Assembly (NCBI GenBank): GCA_016866235.1
Contig: VGMW01000002.1
Coordinates: forward strand, 310,001 to 374,000
DNA from: Bacteroidota bacterium
GTDB taxonomy: Bacteria; Bacteroidota; Bacteroidia; Cytophagales; Cyclobacteriaceae
DNA: 64,000 nt
Direction of reading: 5' to 3'
In this document: piece by piece, positions 9,428-19,225 of the stretch
How the letters are laid out: each line of letters begins with the position of its first letter
Numbering within the stretch: position 1 is the stretch's first letter
The notes under the pieces: generated by a model
Told to the model about the DNA's origin: nothing
Database searches by the model: none
The model's input: the letters and a program-made list of their open reading frames with translations, nothing else
Made by a program: the position numbers and the translations under genes

Positions 9428-10006
9428 ATGGCGCAACACATAGGTCTCTTTTTTGGGTCTTTTAATCCGGTGCACATCGGGCACCTGATCATTGCCAATA
9501 GCATGGTTGAACTATCGGATTTGGACAAGGTTTGGTTTGTGGTCTCTCCACAGAACCCTTTTAAGCCTGCCAAAGGATTGCTTCATGAATTCGACCGTTA
9601 TGACATGGTCTGCGCAGCCATCGCGGACAACCATAAGCTAGAGGCCAGTGATGTGGAATTCCGACTGCCACGACCAAGTTATACCATCCATACGTTAAGC
9701 CATTTGTCTAAAAAATATCCTGACAAAAAGTTTAGCCCCATCCTGGGTGAAGACAACCTTGGAGACTTCCATAAATGGAGGGAGCCGAATGCAATTTTGG
9801 ATCAATATGGCTTGTATGTTTATCCCAGACCAAATTCGTTAACCACGGAGCTGCACAACCATCCCAACGTAAAAATCGTTAAGGCACCCATGATGGACAT
9901 TTCTGCAACATTTATCAGGCAGTGCATTCGGGACCGTAAGTCGATACGTTATCTGGTTCCTGATGCGGTTGAAGAGATCATCCAACGAAAAGGATTTTTT
10001 CTTTGA
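9428..10006 (+). CDS. nadD: Nicotinate-nucleotide adenylyltransferase
   Basis: 192 residues of a nucleotidyltransferase fold: GLFFGSFNPVHIGHL gives the adenylyl-binding HIGH motif, and ISATFIRQ near the C-terminus is the second signature. It adenylylates nicotinate mononucleotide to deamido-NAD. A TAGTTTTG box ends 7 bases upstream, which suggests its own, nearly leaderless transcript. Its TGA stop overlaps the TTG start of the following outer-membrane protein gene (TTGA). Confidence 0.94.
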   Translation: MAQHIGLFFGSFNPVHIGHLIIANSMVELSDLDKVWFVVSPQNPFKPAKGLLHEFDRYDMVCAAIADNHKLEASDVEFRLPRPSYTIHTLSHLSKKYPDKKFSPILGEDNLGDFHKWREPNAILDQYGLYVYPRPNSLTTELHNHPNVKIVKAPMMDISATFIRQCIRDRKSIRYLVPDAVEEIIQRKGFFL

Positions 10007-12654
10007 CTACAGCATTTAGGGTATTTATTTTTTCTCTGCTGCTGGCTTGTGCCGGCAGTTCCTGTTTATATGCCGGTGGACTTCGTGGAAAGGTAACCGA
10101 TGAGTCAGGCGCGCCGCTCGCCAATGCATCCGTTTATGTTCGGGAGACCGGTACAGGAGGTGCAACCGATGTGGGTGGTCAATATGAAATTTTGTTACCG
10201 CCCGGGAAATATGAAGTCATTTTTCAATACCTCGGTTACCAGGCTACTACGATAACTGTTCAGATTGGAAATGAAATGAAAGTGCTTGATGTTCGATTGA
10301 AAGCACAAACTGTCGAGTTGCCCACACTCACCATTCGGGCAAAAAAGGAAGATCCTGCCTACTCCGTCATGCGCAGGGCCATTGCAAGGGCAAAGTACCA
10401 TCTGCAGCAGGTGGATAGTTTTTCTGCTACCGTGTACATCAAGGGTAAGGGAAAATTAAAGGACTTTCCCTTTCTCGCTAAAAAGATGCTTGAGAAGGAA
10501 GGCATCACCAAAGACCGGCTTTTTATTCAGGAGTCGGTGAGTGAAGTAAGGTATAAGCGACCCAACAAGTTCACAGAAAAAGTGATTGCCATTTATACGC
10601 AGGGAAAGAACAGCACGGCCTCACCAAACGAATACATTTTCGGAAGTTTTTATGAACCTGAAATTGCGGAGACGATTTCACCACTCTCTCCAAAAGCATT
10701 TTCCTACTACAGGTTCGAGTATGTAGGAATTTTCAAGGATGGCCGGCATGAAGTCAATAAAATAAAGGTGATACCCAGATCAAAAGGCGATAATGTGTTT
10801 GATGGCGTCATCAGTATTGTGGAAGACTCCTGGAGTATTCATAGTGTTGAGCTGACTTCAAACCGCCTGGGAATCAGGTTTAACATTCGACAGCTGTATT
10901 TGCCGGTATTGGATGCTGTGAATAAGAAACATGAAGCCTGGATGCCGGTGAACCAAAACTATACGGTAGGAGGATCTGTTTTTGGATTTGAGTTTGAAGG
11001 GCAGTATTTGGCGACGGTTCGTGATTACAAAGTTTTTTTGAATCCGAAACTGCAGCACGATATGGTGGTGGTTGATGTGCCGCGAAAGGAGCAGCCGGCC
11101 GCAGTGGTTGCGAAAAAGGATCAGCGACAGCAGGCCATCAAGTCGAAACTTGAGAAAGGGGAAGAGGTTTCCACCAAAGAGCTCAGTCAGTTTATTAAGA
11201 CGGTGGAGAAAGAGGAAGCAAGGAAAAGTCCGGATGCCAATGTTACTTCAGACCGTTCTTTTAAAGTTGATTCACTTGCATCGAAGAAGGATTCTGTCTT
11301 TTGGTCTGCCCTTCGTCCTGCACCCTTGGAGAGGGAGGAGATTCGTGGTTACATCAAGGCGGACAGTCTGGCAACCATTGAAAAGAAAAAAGCGGAAGGT
11401 GATTCAGCGAAGGAATCTAAGAGTAAGGGTTTTCAGTTGTACGATCTTGTTTTTGGCGATCGGTACAAGGTGGGTAAGACCACAGGGTTTGAGATCAAGT
11501 TGCCGTATGGTGGTTTCAATTCGGTAGAGGGATGGAATTTGATTTATCGGTTGGGATTTGACCATCGCTGGGTGCGCAAGGATTCATTGAAGCCGGAGGA
11601 GCCGGCAAGCGTAACGCGGCTTGATGTAACGCCTGTGTTTCGGTATGCGATGAGTACGCGGCGGGCGTCAGGATTTCTTAGGGCAGACCTTCGGATGTCG
11701 AACGCCAGGATTACGATGCAGGGAGGTCGTTATGTTCAGCAATTGAATCCTGGTGATCCGATTCATCCTTTGGGAAACAGTTTTTCAACGCTGGTATTGG
11801 CTCGGAACTACATGAAAATTCTTGAGCGCGACTTTGTTTCGCTGACCGGTCGATATCGGGCCAGTGATGTTCTGACGTTCACAACCGACTGGTCATACAA
11901 CAACCGCAGGGAGCTTAGCAACAACACATACTTTACATTTTTTGGAGATGGGAGAAAAACATTTACCTCGAATACGCCGGAGGTTACGGAGTCGGGTGTA
12001 GCCACCATCGGCAAGCATCAGGCATTCATTGGTTCGATTGGTGCGGAGGTACGTCCGTGGCAGCAGTATCGGATTAGAAATGGCAGAAAGTATCGGGTAG
12101 AGGGATCGCCATGGTTTGTATTGGGTTATCGGAAAGGATTTGGTGGTGTGATGGGAAGTGATGTTGATTATGATTTGGCGGAGATCGGCTATCGACATGC
12201 TCTTCGGTTGGGTTACCGTGGACGGTTGGAGTACCGTTTAGATGCCGGTGCGTTTTTAAATACGGAGTCGGTATATTTCCCTGACTACAAACACTTTCCT
12301 GGTAACCGTACTTTTTTGATGGTTTTTAACGGGCCGGGTAGCTTCCGATTGTTGGATTATTATCGGTATAGTACAGCAGATCGTTATTTCACGGCCACGG
12401 CGAATTATTATTTCCGGAAGTTTATGCTCACGCGGGTGCCGAAGCTTCGGTTGTTTGGAATCCGGGAGAATGTTTTTGGTGCGTATCTGACCACGCCTTA
12501 CGCCGGAAATTATTTTGAGGCTGGTTATGGCATTGACGGAATTTTGCGCGTGTTCAGGATTGAGGGCGCGGTTGCTTTTCAGAATGGCAGGCGGTTGCCG
12601 GCGGGTATACGCATAGGGATTGCCGCCAGTTTAGCGATGGAGTTTGGTGATTGA
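10003..12654 (+). CDS. DUF5686 / carboxypeptidase-regulatory-like outer-membrane protein
   Basis: 883 residues. A signal peptide (about 1-24) is followed by a CarboxypepD_reg-like beta domain (about 27-110, GLRGKVTDESGAPLANASVY), then a long DUF5686 region starting near YSVMRRAIARAKYHLQQ, a charged linker (about 365-480), and a C-terminal half rich in alternating aromatic strands that reads as a beta-barrel. Location is therefore probably the outer membrane; the molecular function of DUF5686 proteins is not established. It starts with TTG overlapping the nadD stop, the only sensible start before the signal peptide. The hairpin array begins right after it. Confidence 0.85.
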   Translation: MTTAFRVFIFSLLLACAGSSCLYAGGLRGKVTDESGAPLANASVYVRETGTGGATDVGGQYEILLPPGKYEVIFQYLGYQATTITVQIGNEMKVLDVRLKAQTVELPTLTIRAKKEDPAYSVMRRAIARAKYHLQQVDSFSATVYIKGKGKLKDFPFLAKKMLEKEGITKDRLFIQESVSEVRYKRPNKFTEKVIAIYTQGKNSTASPNEYIFGSFYEPEIAETISPLSPKAFSYYRFEYVGIFKDGRHEVNKIKVIPRSKGDNVFDGVISIVEDSWSIHSVELTSNRLGIRFNIRQLYLPVLDAVNKKHEAWMPVNQNYTVGGSVFGFEFEGQYLATVRDYKVFLNPKLQHDMVVVDVPRKEQPAAVVAKKDQRQQAIKSKLEKGEEVSTKELSQFIKTVEKEEARKSPDANVTSDRSFKVDSLASKKDSVFWSALRPAPLEREEIRGYIKADSLATIEKKKAEGDSAKESKSKGFQLYDLVFGDRYKVGKTTGFEIKLPYGGFNSVEGWNLIYRLGFDHRWVRKDSLKPEEPASVTRLDVTPVFRYAMSTRRASGFLRADLRMSNARITMQGGRYVQQLNPGDPIHPLGNSFSTLVLARNYMKILERDFVSLTGRYRASDVLTFTTDWSYNNRRELSNNTYFTFFGDGRKTFTSNTPEVTESGVATIGKHQAFIGSIGAEVRPWQQYRIRNGRKYRVEGSPWFVLGYRKGFGGVMGSDVDYDLAEIGYRHALRLGYRGRLEYRLDAGAFLNTESVYFPDYKHFPGNRTFLMVFNGPGSFRLLDYYRYSTADRYFTATANYYFRKFMLTRVPKLRLFGIRENVFGAYLTTPYAGNYFEAGYGIDGILRVFRIEGAVAFQNGRRLPAGIRIGIAASLAMEFGD

Positions 12655-12676
12655 GATTGGATTTGATGTTGCGTGT

Positions 12677-12719
12677 GGGCAAATGTGACAGGTCACAAGA
12701 CCTGACACGGAGTATGTGG
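12677..12719 (+). repeat. Hairpin repeat module A, copy 1
   Basis: Starts GGGCAAATGTG and holds TGACAGGT, loop CACAAG, ACCTGACA as a stem-loop, then CGGAGTATGTGG. It is followed by a TATAACTTAATGCTCTTAAT-like segment shared with copy 2. Confidence 0.8.
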
Positions 12720-12760
12720 TTAGACGTATAACTTAATGCTCTTAATATAATGCCCGCGCC

Positions 12761-12982
12761 ATGTCGGGTGTCTTTGTGTGATGTCGGGTGTTATCACCCC
12801 ACATGATTTCATTCTTGTTGATTAAAGATATCCGCATTCCATGTCGGGTGTTGTCACCAACATTATTTCAATCTTGTCGTTTAATGGCATATGCGTTCCA
12901 TGTCGGGTGTTATCACCAACATCATTTCATTCTTGTCGTTTAATGGCACACGTGTTCCATGTCGGGTGTTATCACCCGACAT
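12761..12982 (+). repeat. Tandem run of hairpin repeat module B
   Basis: Copies begin at 12781, 12841, 12900 and 12959, so the period is 59-60 bases; a partial copy lies at 12761. Only the copy at 12959-12982 is a perfect 10-bp inverted repeat; the others have one or more stem mismatches on the right arm. The inter-hairpin segment is itself conserved, which separates this from a CRISPR array. Confidence 0.85.
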
Positions 12983-13029
12983 CATTTTATACTCGACTTT
13001 TAAAAAAGTGCTGAGTTTGTGTTGCCGTT

Positions 13030-13074
13030 GGGCAAATGTGTCAGGTCACAAGACCTGACACGGAGTATGTGGTT
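13030..13074 (+). repeat. Hairpin repeat module A, copy 2
   Basis: The best copy: GTGTCAGGT, loop CACAAG, ACCTGACAC, a perfect 9-bp stem, followed by the same CGGAGTATGTGG and by a second TAATGCTCTTAAT segment leading into another module B at 13114. Confidence 0.85.
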
Positions 13075-13264
13075 TTGACGTATAATTAATGCTCTTAATT
13101 TAATGCCTACGCCATGTCGGGTGTTCTCGTGCAATGCCGTGTCTTTTCACCCGACATTATTTTATTCTTGTCGTTTAATGGTATACTTATTCCATATCGG
13201 GTGTTATCACCCGACATCATTTTTTACTCGACTTTTGAAATAGTGCTGAGGATGTTTTGTGGAT

Positions 13265-13306
13265 GGGCAAATGTGTCAGATCACAAGACCTGACACGGAG
13301 TATTTG
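13265..13306 (+). repeat. Hairpin repeat module A, copy 3
   Basis: GGGCAAATGTG and the stem-loop with one mismatch (GTGTCAGAT against ACCTGACAC). It is followed by a diverged tail and by module B copies at 13349-13372 and from 13409. Confidence 0.8.
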
Positions 13307-13408
13307 GGTACGTCTATTACCTATGGCATTTTTTTAAACGCCCACGGTATGTCGGGTTTGGTCACCCGACATCATTTCATTCTTGTCGTTTAATGGCATA
13401 CGCGTTCC

Positions 13409-14557
13409 ATGTCGGGTGTTATCTACCAGGATGAGTCACCCTATTTGCTGAGCGCTACGTCCTCGACGGGTCTTGGGATAAAGTTTTCGGTTGTAGAGGG
13501 CAATGCGACGGTGAACGGCACACAGCTGATTATTAACGGATCAGGAGGGATTAAGGTAAGAGCCTACCAGGAGGGTACGGAGATCTATGCATCGGCGGAG
13601 GTTATTGCCACGACAGTTGTACCGGCGAGCTATAAGGTATCGGGTTTAATTACCAAGCCGACCAATGTTGGATTAGGGAGTGGCCTTGTGAAGCTGTTTT
13701 ATGAGAAGGGAGGTCTTGCGAAAAGCGGACAGGTTACCAACGGGGTCTATAGCATCAGCCAGGTAAGACCGGGTCGATATGTGCTACAGGTTGTTCCCAC
13801 GGGCAGTGAGGATGCATTGGTGTTTCCGGCGTACTACAATGGGGCGTTACTGAACAAGGATGCGACGGTGATTACAGTAGATGGAGATGTTACGGTAAGC
13901 ATGGAGCTACCGGGCAAACAGGTAAATGCAAATGAGGCGAAGGGTCCAGGTCAGATCAAGGGGAAGGTGGTAGGCAGTGGCAGTGGCGGCAGGTTTATCG
14001 TGGGCAGGATAGTGGAGGGGGTAGGGCTATCGGATGTACCGGTTTATTTGCTGGACACCTCGGAGAAGGTCTTGAAGACGGTGAAGACGGACAAGGATGG
14101 TTTGTTTGAGTTCAGGGAACTGGTGACGGGCAGTTATAAACTAGCCTTGGATGTAGTAGGAGCGAGTCTTGCGAATACGGCAGCGAGCATCACGTTAACG
14201 CCACAGAACCCGATACTGGAGGTGAGTGCGGTGATCGGGGAGAAGGACGGCCAGCCGGTGGTTGGGTTAGAGGTGTTGGTGATCACGGGATTAGAGGGTG
14301 ATAAGCAAGAGCTGAGGGTTTATCCGAATCCATTCAGGGAGGAGCTGGTGGTGGAGTATGTAGGGAAGGAGGGGAATCCGATAGAGTTCAGGCTACTGGA
14401 TATGAATGGCCGGGAGGTGATAAAGGAGGAGAAGTCATACAGTGTGTCGGCACGCTACAGGATCGAAGTGAAAGAGAAGGACCTGCCACAGGGGATGTAC
14501 ATATTGGAAATCCTTCAATCCAACCGCCGGGCCTTGCTTAAGGTGGTGAGGAGGTAA
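13409..14557 (+). CDS. Headless T9SS-type secreted protein fragment (start codon supplied by a repeat)
   Basis: 382 codons with a C-terminal T9SS sorting domain (LRVYPNPFREELVVEY ... GMYILEIL ... LLKVVRR). There is no signal peptide: the first five codons, ATG TCG GGT GTT ATC, are the start of hairpin module B, and protein-like sequence begins after that junction with a piece of an MBG/Ig-like module (LLSATSSTGLGIKFSVVEG). Two carboxypeptidase-regulatory-like beta domains follow (about 75-165 and 175-275). A T9SS cargo without a signal peptide cannot reach the periplasm, so this is probably the 3' remnant of a longer gene. The rest of the frame is intact and ends before a strong terminator. 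Confidence 0.75.
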   Translation: MSGVIYQDESPYLLSATSSTGLGIKFSVVEGNATVNGTQLIINGSGGIKVRAYQEGTEIYASAEVIATTVVPASYKVSGLITKPTNVGLGSGLVKLFYEKGGLAKSGQVTNGVYSISQVRPGRYVLQVVPTGSEDALVFPAYYNGALLNKDATVITVDGDVTVSMELPGKQVNANEAKGPGQIKGKVVGSGSGGRFIVGRIVEGVGLSDVPVYLLDTSEKVLKTVKTDKDGLFEFRELVTGSYKLALDVVGASLANTAASITLTPQNPILEVSAVIGEKDGQPVVGLEVLVITGLEGDKQELRVYPNPFREELVVEYVGKEGNPIEFRLLDMNGREVIKEEKSYSVSARYRIEVKEKDLPQGMYILEILQSNRRALLKVVRR

Positions 14558-14580
14558 CGTGGTTAAAGTGTTTTGATATG

Positions 14581-14618
14581 AAAGCCCGTTGTCGAAAGAT
14601 AGCGGGCTTTATTATTTT
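14581..14618 (+). terminator. Intrinsic terminator after the headless T9SS gene
   Basis: AAAGCCCG ... CGGGCTTT with an inner stem closed by a GAAA tetraloop, about 13 base pairs allowing wobbles, followed by ATTATTTT. Because the hairpin covers the first codons of the open frame beginning at 14578, it shows that the kelch-like gene starts downstream. Confidence 0.85.
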
Positions 14619-18861: not shown

Positions 18862-19225
18862 TCACATATTAACAATTTGAATGGTGCTGTGCAGCAGTCC
18901 ACGTCACAAATCAATCACCTCTATTTTTTATTATGTGAATTTTATAAAACGAAGATTCGGGATTGTAAATATTTTTAGATCTAGATTTTCTGGTTAGTTA
19001 AATCGTATTTGATTACTGACTATAAATTTCACACGGCTACAACTCAATAAGTTGTCGAAATATGCCATCAAATCTGACTGTAATAATTTAAAATTCAAGA
19101 CCTATGTGTCAAGTCATAAGACCTGACACTTAACACGTGAAAATGTTTATTAAATCAAAGTACTTTTTTACTTGGAAGCCCCAAGCAATGTGCTCTTATA
19201 CGAACATGGAGTTTAATGATCTCAC
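18862..19225. other. Intergenic region with one diverged hairpin
   Basis: About 360 bases between the kelch-like gene and ribH. It is A+T-rich and without a credible reading frame. The only structure seen is the degenerate module A hairpin at 19106-19129. Confidence 0.6.
19106..19129 (+). repeat. Diverged hairpin repeat module A, copy 4
   Basis: GTGTCAAGT, loop CATAAG, ACCTGACAC differs from copy 2 by two bases, one in the left arm and one in the loop. It lies on the far side of the two T9SS-type genes from the main array. Confidence 0.7.

Follow-up and report, generated by a model that had tools for sequence, protein, structure and literature searches.

A composite hairpin array in a Bacteroidota genome resembling a tandem cluster of REPIN-like doublets

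The array and the genes on either side

The array lies at positions 12677-13425 of the window, which here means the whole 64,000-nucleotide stretch of DNA that was analysed. It starts about 20 bases past the stop codon (12654) of a gene of the DUF5686 family and is followed by a reading frame with a type IX secretion C-terminal domain. An earlier note had placed the repeats in a gene-free region; the array does sit between two genes, but its right end lies inside the second reading frame (13409-14557). REPs are repetitive extragenic palindromes and RAYTs are Y1 single-strand transposases. The features are as follows.

10003-12654, plus strand: upstream gene, DUF5686 family, reaching its stop
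12677-13425, no strand: composite array of tandem REPIN-like doublets with conserved spacers
12685-12708, minus strand: module A1, stem with one mismatch
12761-12770, plus strand: half B, 5' arm alone, seen in the sequence
12781-12804, plus strand: module B1, one mismatch
12841-12863, plus strand: module B2, broken 3' arm
12900-12922, plus strand: module B3, broken 3' arm
12959-12982, plus strand: module B4, loop TTAT, perfect 10-bp stem
13038-13061, minus strand: module A2, loop ACAA (plus strand), perfect 10-bp stem
12959-13061: B4-A2 inverted doublet, REPIN-like, 103 nt
13114-13123, plus strand: half B, 5' arm alone, seen in the sequence
13134-13157, plus strand: module B5, degenerate 5' arm (three mismatches)
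13194-13217, plus strand: module B6, one mismatch
13273-13296, minus strand: module A3, one mismatch
13194-13296: B6-A3 inverted doublet, 103 nt, with 92 of 103 positions the same as in B4-A2
13349-13372, plus strand: module B7, one mismatch
13409-13425, plus strand: module B8, 3' arm cut off, right edge of the array
13409-14557, plus strand: reading frame with a type IX secretion C-terminal domain
19106-19129, minus strand: lone A hairpin, 5.7 kb past the array

In total, the array holds three A hairpins, eight B hairpins (the last cut off) and two half B arms. The hairpins, their alternation and the conserved spacers described before are all present, and the B core is matched 15 times in the window, a count that includes some A copies and minus-strand readings of B, whereas 100 shuffled sequences give 0.39 matches on average and never more than 2. 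Details of the earlier description were corrected. Module A had been given a 9-bp stem and a 6-base loop, which misses one pair; it reads GTGTCAGGTC-ACAA-GACCTGACAC, with a 10-bp stem and a 4-base loop. The order, given as A-BBBB-A-B-A-B, is A-(half B)-B-B-B-B-A-(half B)-B-B-A-B-B(cut). B4 is the only perfect B in the window and several B copies no longer fold into a hairpin. A tandem repeat finder gave periods of 59 and 235 bases, and tandem duplication inside the array is likely.

A and B had been taken for two separate families. Read on the minus strand, A aligns with B without gaps over 24 columns and has the same geometry, and the two look like orientations and variants of one hairpin class. 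The alignment comprised 21 copies from the array's own genome (8 A and 13 B), without the half arms, the truncated B8 and an A that duplicates another one exactly. Pairing is found in 86.5% of its cells (shuffled mean 79.9, none of 500 shuffles as high), while structures slid along the alignment pair in 20 to 49%. The covariation score of 0.276 exceeds that of all 500 shuffles (0.158 in shuffled alignments), and cells changed on both sides number 20 (shuffled mean 7.9, none of 500 as high). Of the five covariation measures, two do not stand out from shuffled alignments, namely the number of pairs with both sides changed (3, shuffled 2.8) and that of additional pair types (8, shuffled 9.2). The A-to-B difference accounts for much of the covariation, although a single B copy on contig C1 changes both sides of one pair by itself.

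The distance from the start of B to the start of A is exactly 79 nt at 12959 to 13038 and at 13194 to 13273, and the same on contigs C1 and C6. The resulting B-then-A inverted doublet of constant 103 nt, i.e. a fixed-spacing inverted pair as in a REPIN, occurs at four places, two in the window and one each at the starts of C1 and C6, and 81 to 99 of its 103 positions agree across the six pairwise comparisons. Because the doublet length is constant, we read the array as a tandem cluster of REPIN-like doublets with their spacers. Most window copies carry a CC or GCC foot in place of the GT[AG]G foot of canonical REPs. CC is present at B2, B3, B4, B6, B8 and, on the minus strand, A1-A3, and absent from B1, B5, B7 and the single A at 19106.

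The stable hairpins on one strand might also be expected of a structured RNA encoded between the two genes, as the earlier note had suggested. No Rfam match was found at 12500-13700 up to E=1, and promoter-like sites number 1 against 2.2 in shuffles, although such scans say little in Bacteroidota. The suggestion thus found no support, and we consider an RNA of this kind extremely unlikely.

On the right side, the first possible start of the 13409 frame lies inside hairpin B8, with later in-frame starts present, and its residues 7-73 match parts of long open frames in relatives (2837 aa in G209, 1133 aa in G239). For these two reasons, the secreted-protein gene has probably lost its 5' part. 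No orthologue of the frame was found among 62 genomes of the genus, the best match outside its own genome (E=2.7e-12) covering residues 111-373, so that the original junction at 13425 is not readable. The position of the array at this apparent truncation is compatible with the earlier suggestion of a recombination substrate. Past the frame, a terminator-like hairpin (window 14572-14617) recurs at 85% identity at the starts of contigs C1 and C6 (L016:11-56 and L017:11-56), before a similar repeat array.

Copies and Y1 transposase genes in the same genome

Copies of the array type are found at six places in the 2.77 Mb assembly; classical REPs have hundreds of copies. Further copies lie at C1:98-358 and C6:98-400. 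At C1:865871-866042 the order is A-B-B, and the segment 865871-866033 shares 80% identity with window 13261-13423. A lone related hairpin with a CC foot, GAGTCAGGTG-TTTT-CACCTGACTC, is located at C1:834673. The first 127 bases of C1 and C6 are exactly identical, which looks like a k-mer overlap of the assembly, with both contigs breaking at one repeat beside array copies. In the array and its copies, elements of this type are seen at contig ends and at what appears to be the breakpoint of a truncated gene.

The possibility that the repeats occur only here, which the earlier note had reckoned with, is contradicted by the copies at other places of the genome. They also bear on a rival account of the array, namely plain local tandem duplication of a region with a terminator-like or regulatory hairpin and no transposase. 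Unequal crossing-over would give such conserved spacers and the two periods of 59 and 235 bases, and a terminator scan of 12500-13600 returned five sites (shuffled mean 1.2, sd 1.1), of which four fall on B copies or a half B of the array. However, the same composite recurs elsewhere in the genome, no T run follows the A hairpins and closely similar hairpins stand on either side of RAYT genes in relatives (below). Taken together, we regard plain duplication as unlikely.

Two Y1 transposase genes are present in the assembly.

C6:196016-196552 of the array's genome, G000 (L023:6016-6552): Y1 transposase gene
C5:121370-121825 (L024:5370-5825): Y1 transposase gene

Both were rejected as drivers of the array: their motif (Y-x3-Q-x2-HH) places them in another subclass, NCBIfam classes them as IS200-like, and their hairpins are different. 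The C6 gene adjoins arrays of GGGTCCC-ATC-GGGACCC every 48-49 bases and GGGTCCC-TAT-GGGACCC every 51, and the C5 gene adjoins arrays of GAGCTCC-TGAC-GGAGCTC every 38-39 bases and a related one every 58. At similar Y1 loci in the genus, these two included, at least three similar triloop hairpins lie within 700 bases at 10 of 30, with a 31st locus (L258), scored on a run of N, left out of the count; the control ORFs gave 0 of 156. The motif resembles that of subclass 1.2, for which the available text of PMC6006769 gives no REPs.

RAYT genes and their hairpins in relatives

The core TGTCRGGT-N6-ACCYGACA is present in 14 of 196 genomes of the family, the array's own included, and a reversed control pattern in 2. 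This patchy distribution is unlike that of a housekeeping site and speaks against the hairpins being kept because a host protein (a nucleoid protein, gyrase or recombinase) binds or cuts there. Such a role would fit the joint change of both arms in part of the copies, and E. coli REPs bind host proteins. The accessible part of Nunvar 2010 also reports such binding. On balance, we consider host-protein sites highly unlikely.

Hairpins very similar to those of the array flank RAYT genes in relatives. In six genomes of the same genus (G094, G201, G225, G208, G235 and G226), a RAYT gene has an A-type hairpin, GTCAGGTC..GACCTGAC, on either side, with a shorter downstream stem in G235 and G226. A seventh RAYT, more distant and also from the genus (G240), is flanked on either side by the B-type GTGTCAGGTG-TTAT-CACCTGACAC. 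Hairpins directly adjoin the RAYT gene in G131 and G005, and in G131 two hairpin types, TGTCAGGT and ATGTCGGAT, alternate in two places, one of which adjoins its RAYT. Some of these genes are damaged: that of G005 has an inner stop and that of G131 is truncated at its start and lacks the first part of the Y1 profile. Those of G225 and G226 match in two frames and look damaged as well; RAYT fragments with stops were found in G210 and G183.

The G094 protein scores 90.2 against the NCBIfam family NF047646, 'REP-associated tyrosine transposase' (cut-off 80), which is also the best family for G131 (73.2) and G240 (67.1), both below the cut-off. The motifs of G131 (NHIH, WQ, YIHNNP) fit the set of TnpA-Y1 subclass 2.6 (NH[LIV]H, WQ, YIH[QN]NP), G094 (NHLH, WQ, YIHTNP) differs by one variant, and G240 has NHIH, but WE and YIHRNP in place of two of the motifs. 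As protein queries, G131 gave matches in 147 of 196 family genomes and G094 in 50 of the 62 genomes of the genus; many of these matches are distant RAYTs. The array's own assembled genome gave no RAYT of this class in searches that included both queries. The earlier proposal of a RAYT-linked repeat thus finds support in same-genus relatives, with no counterpart found at home. The cognate RAYT would have been lost or would lie in an unassembled gap, and the array is for this reason probably a relic or served in trans. RAYT loss that leaves orphan REPs has been published (PMC3686654, accessible part).

A scan of database contigs for the B core returned at least 80 loci. Among the 80 matches listed, record titles assign 41 to Zixibacteria (17 in one genome, 13 in another), 5 to Calditrichaeota and 12 to Bacteroidota. 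One of the 80 has a RAYT homologue in the DNA retrieved (tblastn, two queries), at locus L158, 46 bases from the B-core hairpin. The B core by itself was rejected as proof of kinship in view of these numbers.

Stems of at least 8 bp within 300 bases were found upstream at 67, downstream at 62 and on both sides at 54 of 89 RAYT loci, with a matching pair at 50. On the RAYT tree of these 50 loci, the other 39 without a pair being left out, the hairpin core changes 14 times (minimum 8, shuffled mean 33.6, 0 of 200 shuffles as low). Hairpin type follows the RAYT tree. The CAGGT core is found in two separate parts of it, the G094/G131 clade and G240, so it either arose more than once or was exchanged. 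The closest RAYT clade differs between A and B, so two transposases may have been involved. Among the 50 upstream hairpins, G and T near the apex are each conserved at 96% and C at two positions before the 10-bp stem at 66% and 64%; in the reverse-complemented downstream hairpins, the values are 92-94% for apex GT and 62-64% for the two C positions. The GT apex, like the CC foot, recurs in most window copies.

We therefore favor, with good confidence, the reading of the array as a tandem cluster of REPIN-like elements, i.e. inverted pairs of REP hairpins of the kind a RAYT is thought to recognise and mobilise. B would correspond to the orientation found upstream of a RAYT gene and A to the downstream orientation, and B-55 nt-A would then be a RAYT-less miniature of the hairpin-RAYT-hairpin cassette. 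Acting on the folded single strand, the transposase may cut a few bases beyond the stem and join the strand to a nearby site, and such joinings, or later unequal recombination, would have copied a hairpin and its adjoining DNA in tandem. Copying of the hairpin together with adjoining DNA would explain why the spacers are as conserved as the stems. That a RAYT made the array, and that its spacers are copied flank, we infer from the relatives, as the array's own genome yielded no RAYT of the class.

Flank duplications at RAYT cassettes and comparison with known systems

The sequences flanking RAYT cassettes were compared with one another for direct repeats of at least 50 bits. In a first set of 49 different RAYT loci, of which 7 with short flanks were dropped, a repeat between the two flanks was found at 18 of 42 loci; when the flanks were taken from different loci, 2 of 1722 pairs had one. 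A second set was assembled once this result was known and comprised 40 further places hand-picked from the match list (one dropped); it gave 11 of 39 against 0 of 1482. Control ORFs, which came from loci fetched for other reasons, had a flank repeat in 5 of 150 cases (Fisher 7e-10 for the first set and 1.6e-5 for the second) and, because those loci overlap, a cross-locus rate of 85 in 22350. It should be noted that loci from one genome or clade are non-independent and that some flank matches are array spacers and not host DNA, since masking removed perfect stems of at least 7 bp only.

In a stricter form that asks for copies wholly outside the chosen hairpin pair, 17 of the 50 loci have direct copies of 44-336 bp. 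The downstream copy begins within 8 bases of the 3' hairpin in 10 of the 17 and the upstream copy stops within 6 bases of the 5' hairpin in 7; both edges lie within 12 bases in 5 and neither does in 5. Two loci were compared with sister genomes, and both gave a cassette-less site with a single copy. At L074 (genome G171; with L285), G255 has one copy of the 119 bp that are present twice in G171, and the 756-bp element ends 5 bases outside the hairpins; among the 19 genomes of its genus that were searched, G118 also has a cassette there. At L223 (genome G064; with L310 and L312), G151 and G172 have one copy of 142 bp and the 660-bp element ends 6 bases outside the hairpins. Five genomes were searched for this site; neither G193, with 43 extra bases, nor G121, with about 0.7 kb of other DNA and a partial copy, offers a clean empty site. 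In G118, at C49:381463-381914, a RAYT cassette end (query 1356-1580 of L074:600-2900) is repeated in tandem, with two additional copies that are about 225 bp long and 91-92% identical.

Insertion of the cassette accounts more simply for the empty and filled sites, while an empty site can also arise from loss of the cassette by recombination between the two copies. The sites suggest that these elements would duplicate about a hundred bases of host DNA on insertion. A single-stranded element might be ligated on the lagging strand to an extended 3' end on one side and a displaced 5' flap on the other, and the length of the overlap there would set that of the duplication. We put forward, as a possible if rather doubtful generalization, that RAYT cassettes of the Bacteroidetes class move as units, each insertion duplicating tens to hundreds of target bases (44-336 bp at the loci measured), and that arrays like the present one are ladders built by repeated insertion of RAYT-less doublets. 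Long direct flank copies around RAYT cassettes are possibly new; target duplications of this length were not found in the literature searched, a scope that excluded most subscription journals. A paper from 2021 states, in its accessible part, that there is no evidence of tnpA-REP mobility (PMC8266576). The filled and empty sister sites at two loci, with edges 5-6 bases outside the hairpins, give likely element ends and make transposition testable.

Elements of the IS200/IS605 family encode a Y1 HUH transposase and carry subterminal hairpins, and the BIMEs of enterobacteria are mosaics of REPs in alternating orientation. RAYT cassettes share the transposase type and the subterminal hairpins with IS200/IS605. 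The available text of PMC2817692 says that IS200/IS605 elements generate no larger target site duplications, unlike the 17 of 50 RAYT cassettes with direct copies of 44-336 bp outside their hairpins, and it also describes enterobacterial BIMEs as mosaics of REPs in alternating orientation. The array resembles BIMEs in this alternation and differs in hairpin class, foot and transposase subclass.

The closest transposase class is TnpA-Y1 subclass 2.6 (RAYT group 5), mostly found in Bacteroidetes and described as having 'atypical secondary structures' without the GT[AG]G foot (Quentin et al. 2018, PMC6006769, accessible part). The RAYTs of G131 and G094 resemble it in carrying its three motifs or near variants, and their hairpins in flanking the gene, having copies elsewhere in the genome and lacking the GT[AG]G foot. 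As far as the accessible portion of PMC6006769 goes, it holds no hairpin consensus for the subclass, and 'tandem' and 'direct repeat' are absent from its main text.

For the array as a whole, the nearest parallel is Pseudomonas fluorescens SBW25, where tandem REPIN clusters that include flanking sequence, and alternating GI-GIII REP arrays, have been described (Bertels and Rainey 2011, PMC3116915, accessible part). Each REP type has a cluster that adjoins a RAYT gene in that genome (PMC3116915). In contrast to the high-copy REPs and resident RAYTs of SBW25, the elements described here occupy six places and have a CC foot, with no RAYT found in the assembly. In both genomes, inverted REP doublets stand in tandem together with flanking sequence and two REP types alternate (PMC3116915). 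The earlier note knew of no described element with this two-part make-up; the tandem array of two alternating REP types is a kind already known from Pseudomonas.
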